NCBI GenBank assembly: GCA_015063225.1 | Contig: SUSU01000001.1 | Span: forward strand, 90,446-154,445 | DNA from: Thermoplasmata archaeon | GTDB taxonomy: Archaea; Thermoplasmatota; Thermoplasmata; Methanomassiliicoccales; Methanomethylophilaceae | Direction of reading: 5' to 3' | DNA length: 64,000 nt | Shown here: positions 14,780 through 58,892 of the stretch, one piece after another | Numbering within the stretch: the first letter of the stretch is position 1 | Layout: every line of letters starts with the position of its first letter | Position numbers and translations under genes: made by a program | The notes under the pieces: model-generated | The model's database searches: none | The model's input: the letters and a program-made list of their open reading frames with translations, nothing else | Told to the model about the DNA's origin: nothing

Positions 14780-14852
14780 GTTGATGAACGTTTTGTTAAC
14801 TCCCCGACCACCATTCAAATAATCCTTGGGACACTCCGTCTCGGGGATTCTT

Positions 14853-17030
14853 TTGAGGTCCGACGAGATTAAGGGGATATGCATCAAATCGGCGGATGAC
14901 ATGCTCGCCTACAGCGAGCTGTTCGGCGCGAGCGAGTCCGTCGTGAGGGTGAGGAGTTTCAAGCTGTCGGGGAGGGGGCACGTCCTGCTCCAGCTCGACA
15001 CCCCGGTTGCCGACCCGTCAGGCATCTATCTGAGGGTCAACGGGGATGTCTTCGAGGCATCCTGTTTCGAGATATCGTTCTGCGATCCGCGTTCGCGTAC
15101 GCTCGCGTTACGTTTCGTTCAGGGCCGCACCGACGTCATCTTCGCGGGCGAGCCCGAGGTGGAGGTCGTGGTGGACCTGAGTTTCCTGGTGAGGAAGGCC
15201 CGGGACTACTACGAGGAATTCGGAGACCTGGTGAGGTATCCCGATGAGACGCCGTCGTTCCTCCCGTCCGATTACCCCTTCCCGCAGGGCAGTGTGCCCA
15301 CCGAACAGCAGAGGGAGGCCGTGAGGACCATCCTGAACAGCAGGCTGTCTTACGTGTGGGGGGCGCCGGGCACGGGGAAGACGCAGCTCGTCCTCGCGAC
15401 ATGTATCATGGCCTATGTGAGGCGCGGGAGGAGGGTGGCGGTTATCGCCCCCACCAACAACTCCGTGGAGCAGGTCCTCCGCGGACTCGTCAGTGCGATA
15501 GCCGGGGATCCGGAGTATTCCCGGACAATCGACCTAAACAGGGACATAGCCCGTATCGGCACCCCCACCCCGGGATTCATCAGGGACTTCCCGGGGATGT
15601 GCGAACCCCGTGCGGCGGAGTCCGTATCGAAGAGGGAGGAGAAGGACAGGGAGGTCCTGGAGAACATAATCATGGAACGCCGGATGGACCGTGCCAGACC
15701 CCACATAATGGATTGTCTGGCTCATATGTCCGCGGATGACAAGAAGGCAGCTGAGGCAGCGGCCGCGAAGGCGACCGAGGCATTGGGGCATTCCTCTGTA
15801 TTCTACAACGTCAACGCATGTTTGTCCAAACTAGACGAGATGGGCCTGGAGTACTGCGCCCGCAGGATGTACGCCCGCGACCGTCCGCTGAAGGACATCG
15901 GATAGTACGAGGGATGCGACGACGATTCGATTCTCGACGCCATCTCTTCCATGGGGGAGACCCCCGAGGGGCATGCTGACCCGGAGGGATGCCTCATCGT
16001 GGCCTGCACCCCCCAGACCTACATGGCCCGTTTCGGTCCCAACGGTTCCGACGGACAGAAACCCGCCCTTGGCGTGGACCACATATTCGTCGACGAGGCG
16101 GGATACTGCAACTGCATGATGAGCCTCGCATTGCTGGCCAACGGGGTGCCGGTGACCATGCTCGGGGACCATAAGCAGCTCCCTCCCGTGTGTACGGTGG
16201 ACGAGGAGGACCTGCGCAGGTACATCTCCCGCGGAGGATTCATGAGGTACGGTTTCCTGTGGTCCCAGTCGGCACTGTTCACGGAGAGCGTACTAATCGG
16301 GGACCCGGATTCGGTGTCGAAGGCCTTCGTTGAGCTGTCCGACCCCGTCTTCGACCAGACGCTGAGGGTGGACCTGACGGATTCCCACCGTTTCGGATAC
16401 AATCTCGGGGAGGTCCTCGACCGCTATGTCTACAGGAACGGGGTGAAGGGTCTCGGCAGGGATCCGTTGGAGATCGTCTGCATAGATGCGGCATGCGGGC
16501 CGCGCGACAAACGTATCAACATACCCGAGGCTGAGGCGATAAGGGCGTATCTGGAATCGCATGTGGAGGGAGAGTACTGCATCCTCTCCCCTTACCGCAC
16601 GCAGATCGATGTCCTGAAGCAGGTCATGCCTAAGGAGGAGCAGAGGATCCTCACCGTCCACAAGTCTCAGGGGAGGGAGTGGGATACGGTCATCCTCAGC
16701 GTGCAGGACGGCGAAGGATGCAAGAGGGACGTGCCTCTCAGGTTCACATCCTCCAAATCCGACGTGGGGCTGAAGGTCATAAACACGGCCGTCTCCAGGG
16801 CCAAGAAAAGATTGGTCATTGTCTGTGATTTGAAGTTCTGGCTCAATCGCGGGGAGGAACTGATATGCGGTCTGATCCGTGAGGGGGGCGGCCGCAATTC
16901 CTTCGTCTGGAACGGCAGTTCACTGGAAAACGCCCCGATATTTCTAAATAAAACCGAGGGGGGTTACGGTACAGGCGAATCAAATGGCTACAAGCAAGAA
17001 GCAGAACACTGCCAAGAAGCACGCCCGTGA
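14853..17030 (+). CDS. UPF1/Dna2-like SF1 helicase with an in-frame UAG (candidate pyrrolysine) codon
   Basis: The track lists two halves, 14826-15905 and 15951-17030. They are one reading frame interrupted only by TAG at 15903-15905 (codon 351). Upstream lie Walker A WGAPGTGKTQ (about residue 170) and motif Ia IAPTNNSVEQ. Downstream lie motif II HIFVDEAG (about 410), III GDHKQLPPV, V TVHKSQGREWD and VI NTAVSRAKKR. Neither half alone can hydrolyse ATP, so either UAG is read through or the gene is dead. Start TTG 14853 has GGGGAT before it and a TATA-like box at 14814-14824; TTG 14826 is the alternative. Helicases of this family unwind DNA or RNA 5' to 3'. The 3' end overlaps the small gene at 16984. 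Confidence 0.83.
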
Positions 17031-19825: not shown

Positions 19826-22800
19826 ATGGGATACGGCATTTCGCCGTGGGATAGGATGGGATACATGACGAAGTTAGAATTGGATTTCGTGGAGAAGGTA
19901 AGCGTCATCGCTTGCGGCTCGAACAACAGCCTGGTGGTGTCCGCTTCCGTCGAATGCGGGTCCGAGGGATTGAGGGACATTTGCATCACCCTCACATCGG
20001 AACCGGCCTTCTTCTCTTGCCTGCCCGTGAGGTTCGAATCTTTCGAGGCGGGCACTGTCAATCAGATTACGGACAAGATAACCGTCCGTCCGGATCCGGA
20101 TTTCATCGCGTCTTTGGAGGAGAGCGTCCCTGCGACCGTCACGATGTCGCTCTAGGACCTCGAGGGGACCGTCATCGAACAGGTCTCCCGCGCCACCGAG
20201 ATCCTGCCGTTCAACTATTGGCCCGGGATGGACATGGTGGAGTCTGTGGCGGCGTTCGTCACCCCCAACGCGGACATCCTCGCGAGCGTCCGCACGGACG
20301 CCTCGGACGTCCTGTCGCGTCTCGGTCTCAGTCCCTCCCTCGGAGGGTATCAGGGGGATGTGAACAGCGTAACGGCCATCGGTGCTGCGGTGTTCACCGC
20401 CCTGCACCGCCGCAACATCACATACGTCAACCCTCCCGCAGGCTTCGAGGTCAGGGGACAGAGGGTCCGCCTCCCCGCCGAGGTTCTCGAGAAGTGCGAG
20501 GGAACATGCATAGACCTCGCGGTGCTCTACTGCGCCGTTCTCGAATCCATCGGCCTCAACACCGTCATATTCATCTCCAAGGGACATGCGTTCGCAGGCT
20601 TCTGGCTCATGGACGACCATGCCCCCGACATCGTCACTCCCGACCCGTCCAAGTTCTCCCGTTCCGTCCGCAACGGCGAGATGCGCGCCGTGGAATGCAC
20701 CCTCCTCACCAACGCCCACAGCGCTAATTTCGACGAGGCCTCCGATGCCGGTCTCGCCCATCTCGACGATCTCGATTCGTTCATCTGCGCCGTGGATATC
20801 GCGGCCGCCCGTTCGAGCATCCGCCCCATGCCCACCCGCACCCTCGTCGACGGGAGATGGGTGGTCGACAAGGAGCAGCTCGACGATGAGTCCATCCCCA
20901 AGTTCACCCCCGGGCAGATCTACGAGGACCCCGCCCTCCGCAACCTCACCAAGGTGGACCGCTGGAAGAGGGAACTCCTCGACATCGGGGTCAGGAACTC
21001 CCTCATCAACATGAAGGCCGGCACCAAGATCCTCCCCCTGATGATATCGGAAATCGCCGCCTTCGAGGACCTCTTCTCCACCGGGAAGGAGTTCTTCATA
21101 CATTCCAAGCCCCAGGACTGGACCGGTTCCCAGGCCTACGAGGCACGCCCCTTCGAATCAGAGTTCTACATCGCTAACTACGCGTCCGCCGCCCCCGCTG
21201 ACATCAAGCGCGGGTGGATCCGCACTCCGCTGACCGACGGTGAGACCGAGCAGTCCCTCCGTTCGATCTACCGCGGTGCGGTCAGGGAGCTGGAGGAATC
21301 GGGATGCAACTCGTCCTTCCTCGCGCTCGGCGTCCTCCGTTGGTACGAGGGGAAGGGCACCGTGCCCCACTTCGCCCCGCTCATCCTCCTGCCCGTGGAG
21401 GTGAAGAAGAGGAACACGGGATACAGCGTCCGCCCGCTCGACGAGGAGCCGGTGTTCAACGTCACTCTGACGGAGCATCTCCGCCAGAGTGACGTTGAAC
21501 ACCGGCTCCTCGTCACTCTGGCGGAGATGCTCCGTCAGGAGCACGAGATACAGATCCCCGGCACCGACCCCCTCCCCGCAGATGATAACGGCGTGAACGT
21601 GGACCAGATTCTGCAGACCGTCCGCCGTGCCGTCTCCGGGATGGAGGGATGGGAGGTGCTCAGCGGCGCCGCCCTCGGGATATTCACGTTCTCCCAATAC
21701 GCCATGTGGAAGGACCTCGACCGCAACATCGCCCGCCTCCGCGAGAGCGAGGTGGTCAGGTGCCTCGTCGACGGCACCGTCATGTCCGGCACTCAGGAGA
21801 TCGATGCATCCGCCGATCCCTACGGGTTATGTCTCACCGTGCCTGCGGACGGTTCGCAGATCAGGGCCGTCTCCGCCGCCAGGGACGGGCAGACCTTCGT
21901 CATGCACGGACCTCCGGGAACCGGTAAGAGCCAGACCATCACAAACATCATCACGGATTCGCTCTTCCGCGGGAAGACGGTGCTCTTCGTTGCGGAGAAG
22001 AGGGCTGCCCTCGAGGTCGTCCAGAAGAGGTTGGAGAAGGTGGGTGTCGGGAACCACTGCCTCGAACTCCACTCCAACAAGACCGAGAAGTCCAAGGTCG
22101 TCGAACAGCTGAAGGCCTCCCTCGAATCCTGCAAGGCCGTCGACTCCTCCAAGCTCGAGGAGCTCATGGCCGACATCGAGAAGGAGAAGGCGGTCCTCGA
22201 CTCCTATGTAGAGGAACTGCACGCCGTCCGTCCGTGGGGACTCAGCGCGTACGATGCGATTTCCCGCTACGAATCATATTCTTCAGAAGGGCTGCCCGAT
22301 GTGAGGATACCCGACAGGTACGTTTCGTCCCTCTCCCCCTCGTCCATCGGCGAGCTCGAGGATAGGACATCCCGTGCGGAACGCGTCTTCGCCTCGGTTT
22401 CGGATATCAGGTCTCCCGAGATGAATCATGTGAAGATGGATAACTCCGTCCTCGGCATCGATGACGACGTCCGTCTCGCCCTCGAGGAGACCCGCGCAGC
22501 CGCCGACAGGACCGAGAGGGCGATGGCGGTCATGAACTCCGTAGGACTCCCCGTGGACTTCACTGACCTCCACAAGGCCTGCGGTTTCGTCTCCAGCGTG
22601 CTGTCCGTTCCCCCGGATTCCGCCAACGACTGCAACATCAACGTCACGATCAGCCTCCTGGAATCTCTGCGCGCCCTGTCGGACAACGTCCGCTCCATGG
22701 CGTCCACTTTCCGCGAATCGGAGTTCGCCCTCCTGAGGGCCGACCTCTCCGACGTCGCCTCACGCGCCGAGACCCTCCTGAGGGACCTCTCCGCACACGG

Positions 22801-55436: not shown

Positions 55437-57491
55437 TCACAGTTCGGTGACCGCGGCCCCGGCGGATGCGAGCATGTCGCGGGTGGCGGAGTTGCATGTG
55501 AAGTACAGCACCTGGGCGGAGACGGAGAGTTCCTTAAGGGCCCTGATGCACCCCTCCTTCCTGACATCGTCCGAGGTCATCAGCACGTCGTCGAGGATCA
55601 CGGGGGGTATGTCGCCCGAGAGGCTCAGCGTCAGCCCCATCTTCATGGCCAGCTTCACCTGGTCCTCGGTCCCGGACGACCATTTCTTGACGCTCGTGCG
55701 TTCGCCGGTGACCTTGTTCTCGATCGTGAGTTCGGACGTGCGGATGTCCGACACTATGCCGTACTTGCCTCCGGTCATCGCGGTGAGGAAGCGGTCCGCA
55801 TCCGTGTACACGGACGGGCGGTTCTTCTCGGAGAGGGTGTCGCACGCGGTCTCGAGCATGTGCTTCTCGGCTGCCAGCATCAGCCATCTGCGGACCGCCG
55901 CCTGATATCTCCCGCTGGCAGCCGCGGCCTCCGTGAGGGCCTCCTCGGTGGCGGTGTCGGAGAGGATAGCCTTCTTCTTCTCACGGATGGCGGTGAGCCT
56001 GTCCGACAGGTCCCCGGTCTGGTTGCGGACGTCCATGTAGGTCTGTTCAGCATCGCCGGATACGGGTTCGATCTTCTCTTCGGGAACGGTCTCCCTCAGT
56101 GCGCCTATCGCGGCATCGATCCGTTCGATATCCTTAGACGCCTCGAGTGCCCTGGCGTATCCCTCGTCACCCCCGTAACGGTCCGTGATGGATGCGATGT
56201 CCGCATCCACGGAGGCGAGCCTCGACCGTGCGGAATCGAGTTTGTTCTTCAGATCCGAGACGGTCGCGGCGGCACTAAGCATCGAGGTCATGCGCACGTG
56301 GTCCCCGCGGATGTCCCCCTGACTGATCCCGAAACCCGAGCAGAGCTCCTTCCAGAGTTTCTCGGTACGGTCCGCGGAGGGGTCCGCGACGGCCGTCGGT
56401 CTCTTCCTGAGACCGATGATGGCGATGACCGCACCGGCGGCGATCATCCCTATCCCGGCGAACACGTTGAACACTGCTGCCACGGCCGCACCGCCTACGG
56501 CGACGGCCGCACCGATGATGACAATGGGATTGACCCCGTTCCCTCTCCGGGCCCCGTCGCGGGAGTACAGATACTCGGGAATGGATTCGCCGAGGGTCTT
56601 CACCTTCGGGGCGAGGGGGGTTATGACGGAGGGTTCGGGTCCGCTGTAAGTCTCCAGTGCGGTGCCGTAATCCGATTCGGCCTTGGTCAGGTCCTCCTCG
56701 CTCCTGCGCCTGTCGGCGCATAGGCTGTTGTACTTACCGACCGTGAAGGGGTCGGGGATGGCGATGTCCGCGTATGCCGCGCGTTCCTTCTCGAGTTCCG
56801 CTATCTTCGCGAGGTTCTGCTTCGTGCCCTCCCTGATCTGCGATTCCTTGAATTCCTCGAACGCCGCCGCCTCGTCGCCCTTCGACGTCTCGAGGAGGTT
56901 CATCAGGTGGGCCTCCTCCATGACGAGCTGCCCGTAGGCGGAATCACCGTCGGCGGATGCATTCATCTCCAGCACCCTGTCGTCGGCCTCCTCGGATGCG
57001 CTCCTGAGCCTCGACACGGTGCAGTTCGCGGACCTCCTGCTGTCCGGCAGGAGGGATGTCCTCTCCTTGTCGATGGACTCCTCCGCTGAAGGGACCGCGG
57101 ATGCCCCCGGGACGGTGAGGAGACGGGAGCGGACGGAGTCGATTCCGCCCATGTCCCTGAGCCCGAGGGGGTCGAGGGAATAGATCGAACGGTATTCGTT
57201 TCCGGTGATGCAGCACATGTCGGGCGCGGGACTGTTGGATTTCTTGCCGTTGCGGGTGATCGTCTTGGAGGTGCCGTCCGGCAGCTCGATGTCTACCTCC
57301 CCCGAATCCGATGCTTTCGAAGCGGGATAGGCGGGCATGCGGTCGGGGAACAGGGTGCCGGTGATGAAAGATTTGAGTGTGGTCTTCCCCGATTCGTTCT
57401 TCCCGTAGATGACGTTGAGTCCCGGGGACATCCTCACCGTGCGGTCCCTCGTGCCCCCGAACGAGGTGATGTGGATGCGGGAGATCCTCAT
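55437..57491 (-). CDS. YhaN/Rad50-like AAA ATPase with central membrane helices
   Basis: 684 residues from ATG 57491. N-terminal ABC-ATPase half with RISRIHITSFGG and Walker A GLNVIYGKNESGKTTL. Coiled coil from about 175 to 300, then two hydrophobic helices (IVIIGAAVAVGGAAVAAVF and GMIAAGAVIAIIGL, about 345-395), a second coiled coil, and the C-terminal half with signature WSSGTEDQVKLAMKMGL and Walker B PPVILDDVLMTSD. The membrane pair in place of a zinc hook is the layout of bacterial YhaN rather than archaeal Rad50. The start overlaps the exonuclease stop (ATGA), so the two are made together. Confidence 0.88.
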   Translation of the reverse strand: MRISRIHITSFGGTRDRTVRMSPGLNVIYGKNESGKTTLKSFITGTLFPDRMPAYPASKASDSGEVDIELPDGTSKTITRNGKKSNSPAPDMCCITGNEYRSIYSLDPLGLRDMGGIDSVRSRLLTVPGASAVPSAEESIDKERTSLLPDSRRSANCTVSRLRSASEEADDRVLEMNASADGDSAYGQLVMEEAHLMNLLETSKGDEAAAFEEFKESQIREGTKQNLAKIAELEKERAAYADIAIPDPFTVGKYNSLCADRRRSEEDLTKAESDYGTALETYSGPEPSVITPLAPKVKTLGESIPEYLYSRDGARRGNGVNPIVIIGAAVAVGGAAVAAVFNVFAGIGMIAAGAVIAIIGLRKRPTAVADPSADRTEKLWKELCSGFGISQGDIRGDHVRMTSMLSAAATVSDLKNKLDSARSRLASVDADIASITDRYGGDEGYARALEASKDIERIDAAIGALRETVPEEKIEPVSGDAEQTYMDVRNQTGDLSDRLTAIREKKKAILSDTATEEALTEAAAASGRYQAAVRRWLMLAAEKHMLETACDTLSEKNRPSVYTDADRFLTAMTGGKYGIVSDIRTSELTIENKVTGERTSVKKWSSGTEDQVKLAMKMGLTLSLSGDIPPVILDDVLMTSDDVRKEGCIRALKELSVSAQVLYFTCNSATRDMLASAGAAVTEL

Positions 57492-58675
57492 CTGGAACCC
57501 CCCTCTATGCGGCTGAGGAGCTCCATCTCGGCCTCCTGGAGGACCTCGCGGAAGGTCCCCGCGTCGATCATGGCGCGGACCGTGTCCTTGATGTCGGACG
57601 CCGGGCCCTTGCAGAGCATATCCATGATCTCGCTGTCGTCCATGGCGAACATCCCGTCCGCCGTCCTGACGATCTCCGACATCAGGGTCTCGCCCTCGCG
57701 GATGCGTGCGAGGTCGATGTCCGGGACGGTCCTGACCGCCTCCACGGACGCCCGGCATTTCCTGGCCGAGGCGATGGCGTCCGCAATGCCGTCGGGGTCC
57801 GCCCGAATGGCCCTGTCGAGCTGTCCCTTCCCGGCGAAAGTGACGGAAACGACGGATCCCCTGGGGACCTCCACGGAGGATATGAGTTCGTTGACCGTCC
57901 GTTTCCCGGTGATGTCCGCCGTGACCTCGTCGAAGACAACTCCCTGGGTGGGGATGAAGCGGAGCTCCTCCCTGTCCCCGGTGACCGATACGAGATAGCA
58001 GCCCTTCTCCCCCGTCTCGCGGACGTTGCGCCCCTGTATGTTGCCGGGATACACGACGGCGGGGCCGTGCTCCCTGACGACAGTGCGTTTGTGGATGTGC
58101 CCGAGGGCCCAGTAATCTATGTTCCTCCCCGAGAGGTCGTTCAGGGAACACGGGGCGTAGTCCCCGGAATCGGCAATCTCCTTCAGGCTGCAGTGGAGCA
58201 CGGCGATCGTGTATGCGTCGGGTGAACCCTTGAGTTTCACGGCGAGGTTCTCGGAGGTGTGCCATTCCGCGTAACTCACGCCGGCGACCTCCACCTTACG
58301 TCCGCGGATGTTCATCCTCATCACCCTCGGTTCGCCGGGGAAGAGGTGGACGTTGGGCGGGTACGGGATGGTCTCCTCCCACTGGTCGCCGAAGTCGTGG
58401 TTTCCCTTCACGATGAAGACGGGCTTTCCGTATCTCGCCGCCTCCTCGCAGAACCTGTTCTTGGTGCGGGGAGTCATGAAAGCCTCGTCGAAGAGGTCTC
58501 CTGAGATGACCATGAAATCGGATTCCTTGATCCCCGCATCGATGATCCTTGCGAAGGAACCGAAGATGGATTCGTACACCTCCGACCCCAGTTCCGGGTC
58601 GGAGGAGGAGAGTGAACGCAGGCGGCTCCCCAGATGCAGGTCCGCTGCGTGGATAAAACTGAAATCGCATCCCAT
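57488..58675 (-). CDS. Mre11/YhaO-like DNA repair exonuclease
   Basis: 395 residues from ATG 58675 (MGCDFSFIHAADLHLGS); the track starts 31 codons too early. Calcineurin-like phosphoesterase motifs: HAADLHLGS, ISGDLFDEAF, KGNHDF, and the two later His in VLHCSLKE and ALGHIHKR. A capping domain follows. With the downstream Rad50-like ATPase it forms a nuclease-ATPase pair that probably processes DNA ends. A GGGGG-ATTA-CCCCC palindrome lies directly before its start codon. Confidence 0.9.
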   Translation of the reverse strand: MGCDFSFIHAADLHLGSRLRSLSSSDPELGSEVYESIFGSFARIIDAGIKESDFMVISGDLFDEAFMTPRTKNRFCEEAARYGKPVFIVKGNHDFGDQWEETIPYPPNVHLFPGEPRVMRMNIRGRKVEVAGVSYAEWHTSENLAVKLKGSPDAYTIAVLHCSLKEIADSGDYAPCSLNDLSGRNIDYWALGHIHKRTVVREHGPAVVYPGNIQGRNVRETGEKGCYLVSVTGDREELRFIPTQGVVFDEVTADITGKRTVNELISSVEVPRGSVVSVTFAGKGQLDRAIRADPDGIADAIASARKCRASVEAVRTVPDIDLARIREGETLMSEIVRTADGMFAMDDSEIMDMLCKGPASDIKDTVRAMIDAGTFREVLQEAEMELLSRIEGGSR

Positions 58676-58676
58676 A

Positions 58677-58690
58677 GGGGGTAATCCCCC
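58677..58690. promoter_or_regulatory. GGGGG-ATTA-CCCCC palindrome at the Mre11-like start
   Basis: A perfect 5-bp-arm inverted repeat one base upstream of the ATG (minus strand) and downstream of a TATA-like GTGATATAC near 58697-58705. It would lie at the transcription start, suiting a repressor, or form a hairpin at the mRNA 5' end. Confidence 0.4.
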
Positions 58691-58892
58691 GTCTGAGTAT
58701 ATCACCCTTGGTTTGTTATATCCCGGCAATACTTCGTGTCCGGTGTTTTCCGGGAGGGTTCTGGGCATTTTCTAGTAGTGTTCAAAAAGCAGGATGGGTG
58801 GTTGCGGCCGCGGTAAAAAAACAGAGTCGTTGTGCAAAAAATTGTAATTTAAACCACATAATACTAATAAACCCCTCTTTAAATTCGACTAC

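Follow-up and report, generated by a model that had tools for sequence, protein, structure and literature searches.

A 51-nt in-frame insertion in an archaeal anti-phage ProA-type gene, probably made by one inter-strand template switch

Results

A 17-codon insertion within an anti-phage ProA-type gene

The window analysed here is a 64,000-nt stretch of a draft genome (1.46 Mb, 39 contigs) from a gut methanogen of the Methanomethylophilaceae, a family that includes rumen MAGs titled Methanomassiliicoccaceae or Methanomethylophilaceae. It contains a large ORF whose product carries the Pfam domains DUF4011, a two-part SF1 helicase (AAA_11/AAA_12), REase_MTES_1575 and DUF3320. The earlier note described this protein as a giant helicase. 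The SF1 domains agree with that label, and a score of 1563.5 bits against NCBIfam NF058533 (anti-phage ProA; curated cut-off 1500) refines it: by family score, the product is predicted to be an anti-phage ProA. It also matches the PADLOC candidate PDC-S37 strongly. Outside the insertion the gene is intact by alignment with orthologues; with that of a related complete genome, G002, it aligns nearly full length (1807 residues, 50.5% identity).

Table 1 Features of the ProA-type gene and its insertion (window coordinates)
Feature	Position	Strand	Basis or remark
Anti-phage ProA-type protein ORF, 1839 codons	20228..25747	+	Pfam, NCBIfam, PADLOC
Net insertion, 51 nt, 17 codons	21470..21520	+	direct reading, homologue alignment, parse
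Direct repeat CGTCACTCTG, left copy, 10 nt (left DUP)	21460..21469	+	direct reading
Direct repeat CGTCACTCTG, right copy, 10 nt (right DUP)	21511..21520	+	direct reading
Inverted copy, 48 nt (four-point fragment 2->3)	21467..21514	-	exact reverse complement of 21440-21463 + 21515-21538
Left arm, 30 nt, pairs without mismatch with 21485-21514 (spacer 15 nt)	21440..21469	+	repeat scan
Right arm, 28 nt, pairs without mismatch with 21467-21494 (spacer 16 nt)	21511..21538	+	repeat scan
Quasi-palindrome CTGgCGGAG-ATG-CTCCGtCAG, 8/9 pairs, codons LAEMLRQ, pre-existing	21518..21538	+	outer CTG/CAG ends mark the first switch
GACG, 4-nt inverted repeat pairing with CGTC 21460-21463, marks the return switch	21440..21443	+	direct reading, parse
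CGTC, partner of 21440-21443, first bases of the direct repeat	21460..21463	+	direct reading, parse

As had been proposed, the insertion keeps the reading frame (51 = 17 x 3); it is also free of stops. Because of the 10-nt direct repeat, its boundaries slide from 21460-21510 to 21470-21520 through equivalent placements, one of which is that chosen in the earlier note; the short direct repeat described there is found on both sides. Excision of the 51 nt leaves an unbroken 48-nt stretch, GACGAGGAGCCGGTGTTCAACGTC-ACTCTGGCGGAGATGCTCCGTCAG, of which the insert carries an exact reverse complement. The inverted copy had been given as 45 nt long; its exact complementarity to the joined flanks holds, while its length is 48 nt in the widest placement and 41 nt in the narrowest, since microhomology blurs its ends. 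Whether taken as DNA or as RNA, the region forms a hairpin of 30 pairs (z around -9 to -10 vs shuffles), in agreement with the long coding hairpin suggested before.

Elsewhere in the window, at 14826-17030 (+), lies an SF1 helicase gene of 735 codons that is broken only by one in-frame TAG (15903-15905). In the related genomes G002, G003 and G006, the orthologues also have TAG at this codon of the alignment (DRPxxxIPO-Y), where other orthologues encode R, E, Y or I, and the source genome encodes PylS above cut-off (275.7 bits). The TAG is likely a conserved pyrrolysine codon.

The insertion is absent from homologous loci

We aligned 33 homologous loci, 32 of which cover the insert site (L049 begins downstream of it). 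The 32 comprise three same-genus orthologues (G002, G003 and G008), homologues from further genera in the family and four loci from named MAGs; as four named loci repeat other genomes (L031/L036, L032/L043, L033/L040, L034/L042), about 28 are distinct. The genome collections compared, with one genome per species, gave no record of the same species. All 32 read straight through the site as FN-VTLAEKLRQE or a diverged form, with the 17-residue gap empty, and the search of viral contigs yielded no relative. Thus, distant homologues bearing the extra residues, which the earlier note had named as evidence that would speak against its reading, were looked for in these 32 loci and none was found. Excision also restores the DUF4011 pattern, as claimed, in the form seen in relatives (DEExVFN-VTLAExLRQE). 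These alignments show the insert-free state to be the ancestral one, and the insertion appears to be private to the source genome, adding to the ancestral codons and replacing none.

The insertion had been called very recent, or maintained by conversion, on account of its perfect identity. The arms are indeed identical at all 58 paired positions, but its age is only bounded, by these 0 differences and by the nearest orthologous gene compared, which is 58% identical in DNA; the ancestral DNA itself was inferred by excision. Among the orthologues, the ProA gene of G003 (G003:C22:22328-23169; L006/L017) is split over two frames near Walker A, owing to a genuine frameshift or to a fault of the assembly.

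The inverted repeats are unique in 1.40 Mb of the genome

A scan of 1.40 Mb of the assembly for perfect inverted repeats with a spacer of at most 60 nt placed the 30-nt and 28-nt arms first and second, ahead of repeats of 21 nt (at a contig end), 18 nt and 15 nt. Simulated sequences with the dinucleotide composition of the window (3 x 1.4 Mb) contained no perfect arm longer than 16 nt at the same spacer limit, and a chance origin of the arms is excluded. In a 400-kb sample of G002, the longest repeat is an 18-nt AT-rich arm. No second copy of the insert exists in the source genome, where only the site itself matches, and a genome-wide wave of similar events was rejected, as there is just one in the 1.40 Mb.

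After the ProA-type gene, the strongest candidate for an internal palindromic event in the source genome (G000) is an 18-nt perfect inverted repeat with a 15-nt spacer at L106:17430-17480 (G000:C6:191430-191480), outside long ORFs. A perfect 42-bp palindrome with zero spacer stands at the very start of contig C7 (C7:1-42; L067:1-42) and is probably an assembly end artefact.

A single switch and return explains every base

In the four-point description of template switching, a descendant sequence reads L->1, the reverse complement of 2->3, and 4->R of its ancestor. The ProA-type gene fits this description exactly: a single event explains every base, with 20 equivalent placements and 0 mismatches. 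In all exact parses, synthesis reaches ancestral position 27-30, switches to 45-48 on the opposite strand, runs back to 1-5 and rejoins its template at 21-25, so that the points lie in the order 3-4-1-2 along the ancestor, whichever the replication direction. Intra-strand switching needs point 2 before point 1 (Walker et al., PMC7954356), and a single event must therefore be inter-strand. Where point 4 precedes point 1, the event shows up as a large insertion accompanied by a direct repeat and is similar to strand invasion (Walker et al., PMC7954356). A simple intra-strand fold-back leaves 5 mismatches, all at asymmetric bases of the quasi-palindrome, a mirror fold-back leaves 10, and both were rejected. 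The inter-strand assignment, which we infer, rests on these five asymmetric bases.

Both junctions overlap the ancestor by only 3-4 nt, and both switch points fall at the ends of inverted repeats that predate the event, namely the quasi-palindrome and GACG..CGTC. The quasi-palindrome exists because LAEKLRQ written in GC-rich codons is nearly self-complementary, and most of the related orthologues tested retain 6-8 of its 9 pairs. The strand switch and return proposed in the earlier note is thus upheld, the insert being the inverse of its own flanks, and is made more specific: inter-strand if a single event, with switch points at short inverted repeats.

We consider it likely that one inter-strand template switch and return in the ProA-type gene yielded a small inverted triplication, and we infer an in vivo origin by polymerase template switching. 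During replication or repair synthesis through the gene, the nascent strand would detach at ancestral 27-30 (in ..GTCACTCTG), re-prime on the opposite strand via the CTG common to both quasi-palindrome ends, about 18 nt ahead, and copy that strand backwards for 41-48 nt. It would then return to its own template through the CGTC match and copy 6-10 nt again. The outcome would be a small DUP/IN/DUP of 51 nt that adds 17 in-frame, stop-free codons and keeps all ancestral codons. Most likely, the mutation is recent, private and near-neutral or mildly harmful, and apt to revert precisely through slippage from one 10-nt direct repeat to the other.

The source genome encodes a Fen1 homologue (445.8 bits over all 338 positions) and, on contig C30, an SbcD/Mre11-type nuclease homologue, both above cut-off; loss of either as the cause is unsupported. 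Beside dnaG, at 55437-58768 (-) of the window, overlapping ORFs show weak Mre11-like (57488-58768) and SMC/Rad50-like (55437-58265, the similarity starting at residue 259) similarity, and may encode a further, divergent Mre11-Rad50-like pair in addition to the SbcD homologue on C30.

Alternative origins of the insertion

An artefact, whether a chimeric library molecule formed by fold-back or strand switching during amplification or an assembly error in the contig, is improbable. Amplification chimeras are frequently inverted, with short microhomology (cf. PMC9484634), the assembly is a draft in 39 contigs, and the palindrome at the start of C7 demonstrates that palindromic assembly ends do exist. 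However, overlaps of 3-4 nt are far below assembly k-mers and too short for an assembler to invent, so the reads must hold the junctions, and other reads would outvote a random chimera. Moreover, the insert is in frame and stop-free, and no other internal perfect repeat of such kind occurs in the 1.40 Mb, contrary to what a chimera-rich library would give. A library chimera or a minority allele is therefore unlikely.

We give similarly little credence to two successive steps, an intra-strand fold-back at the quasi-palindrome followed by inversion or conversion of its core. Fold-back alone produces the correct length, mismatched only at the five asymmetric bases, and a following spacer inversion would yield the identical sequence; inversion of the sequence between two repeat arms has been described for yeast genes (PMC8604942). 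Yet this route requires two events where one is enough.

It is very unlikely that the insert is a long-established functional loop of this lineage, in which repeated template switching or conversion has preserved the perfect palindrome: conversion of a quasi-palindrome to a perfect palindrome is a known process (PMC5677150), but no relative has the 17 residues, and a recent event is simpler. A mobile palindromic element like the Rickettsia palindromic elements in ORFs, to which a short, in-frame, palindrome-forming insert within a coding gene might point, is scarcely credible and was rejected, since dispersed copies are lacking in the genome and an insert that is the inverse of its own flanks is unexpected for such an element.

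Coding consequence

The insert that the single switch would have left is read in a codon-aligned antisense register, in which stops arise only from TTA, CTA and TCA codons (0.5% of the gene). Across the gene, 92% of such events would be stop-free in this register and 70% over all registers; an open in-frame insert is therefore unremarkable, given a length divisible by three. Owing to the quasi-palindrome, the extra peptide TEHLRQSDVEHRLLVTL partly echoes the adjacent VTLAEMLRQ. The protein presumably tolerates extra residues just ahead of the TLAEMLRQE segment. An AlphaFold2 model from five sequences (mean pLDDT 47) runs a helix through the insert (model residues 191-210), at a confidence too low to use.

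The LAEKLRQ quasi-palindrome reads nearly alike in antisense (LTEHLRQ), so switching at this spot can add a conserved-like segment in frame. That the 17 residues are useful rather than merely tolerated, with replication reversibly changing the length of a defence protein, is a decidedly doubtful reading; were it true, switching would add the segment and direct-repeat slippage would remove it precisely.

Discussion

The insertion resembles several known classes of mutation. Small inverted triplications (SITs), with the order DUP/IN/DUP, were described in yeast rad27/FEN1 mutants and cancers; they increase in rad27/FEN1-deficient yeast, are precisely lost in E. coli via slippage and SbcCD, and have breakpoints at Okazaki termini as a criterion (PMC13334657). 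The insert shares their DUP/IN/DUP order, two short spacers, reverse-complementary microhomology junctions and hairpin-forming capacity, with 10-nt DUPs, a 41-48-nt IN, 15/16-nt spacers and 3-4-nt junctions. Published SITs have DUPs of 7 bp and INs of 20 bp upwards, with medians of 148 and 160 (PMC13334657); the sizes found here fall inside these ranges, near the small end. Unlike the described SITs, the insert occurs in an archaeon with a fen1 gene, in the assembled consensus and in frame within a gene; FEN1/Rad27 loss, an association rather than a strictly defining feature, does not apply to this Fen1-encoding genome.

The short-range switches of the four-point model (Loytynoja & Goldman; PMC7954356) are likewise comparable, since points 1-4 describe the insert fully and place it in the '4 before 1' class, whose members are seen as a single large insertion accompanied by a direct repeat. 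The events in PMC7954356 are, however, from great-ape genomes and the insert is in archaeal coding DNA, where neither point 2 nor point 3 lies within the 4-1 overlap, which gives rise to two pairs of inverted repeats. As in quasipalindrome-associated mutation (Ripley/Lovett; PMC7202029, PMC5677150), the event would have begun at a pre-existing imperfect inverted repeat (8/9 pairs). In contrast to quasipalindrome correction, no arm was fixed to make the two identical; copying passed beyond the repeat to give a 51-nt insertion. Template switching has also been seen to expand palindromes in rad27 lines of yeast (PMC5677150). Nematomorph mitochondrial genes too have long perfect inverted repeats in translated sequence (PMC6649704), but theirs are numerous and both arms encode conserved protein, whereas the ProA-type gene has one insertion of extra residues.

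Together, our results place the insert in an already known type of event, here seen in an archaeon. Strand-switch errors of this type are known from yeast, humans and E. coli, and our search of the open-access literature found no archaeal example. The present case is unusually clean, as the copy, both switch points, the guiding inverted repeats and the direction can be read from one sequence. FEN1-type Okazaki processing is common to archaea and eukaryotes, and such scars can therefore test the yeast/human SIT pathway in archaea. The insertion also illustrates how a large defence gene can gain 17 codons from one replication error with no sequence lost.
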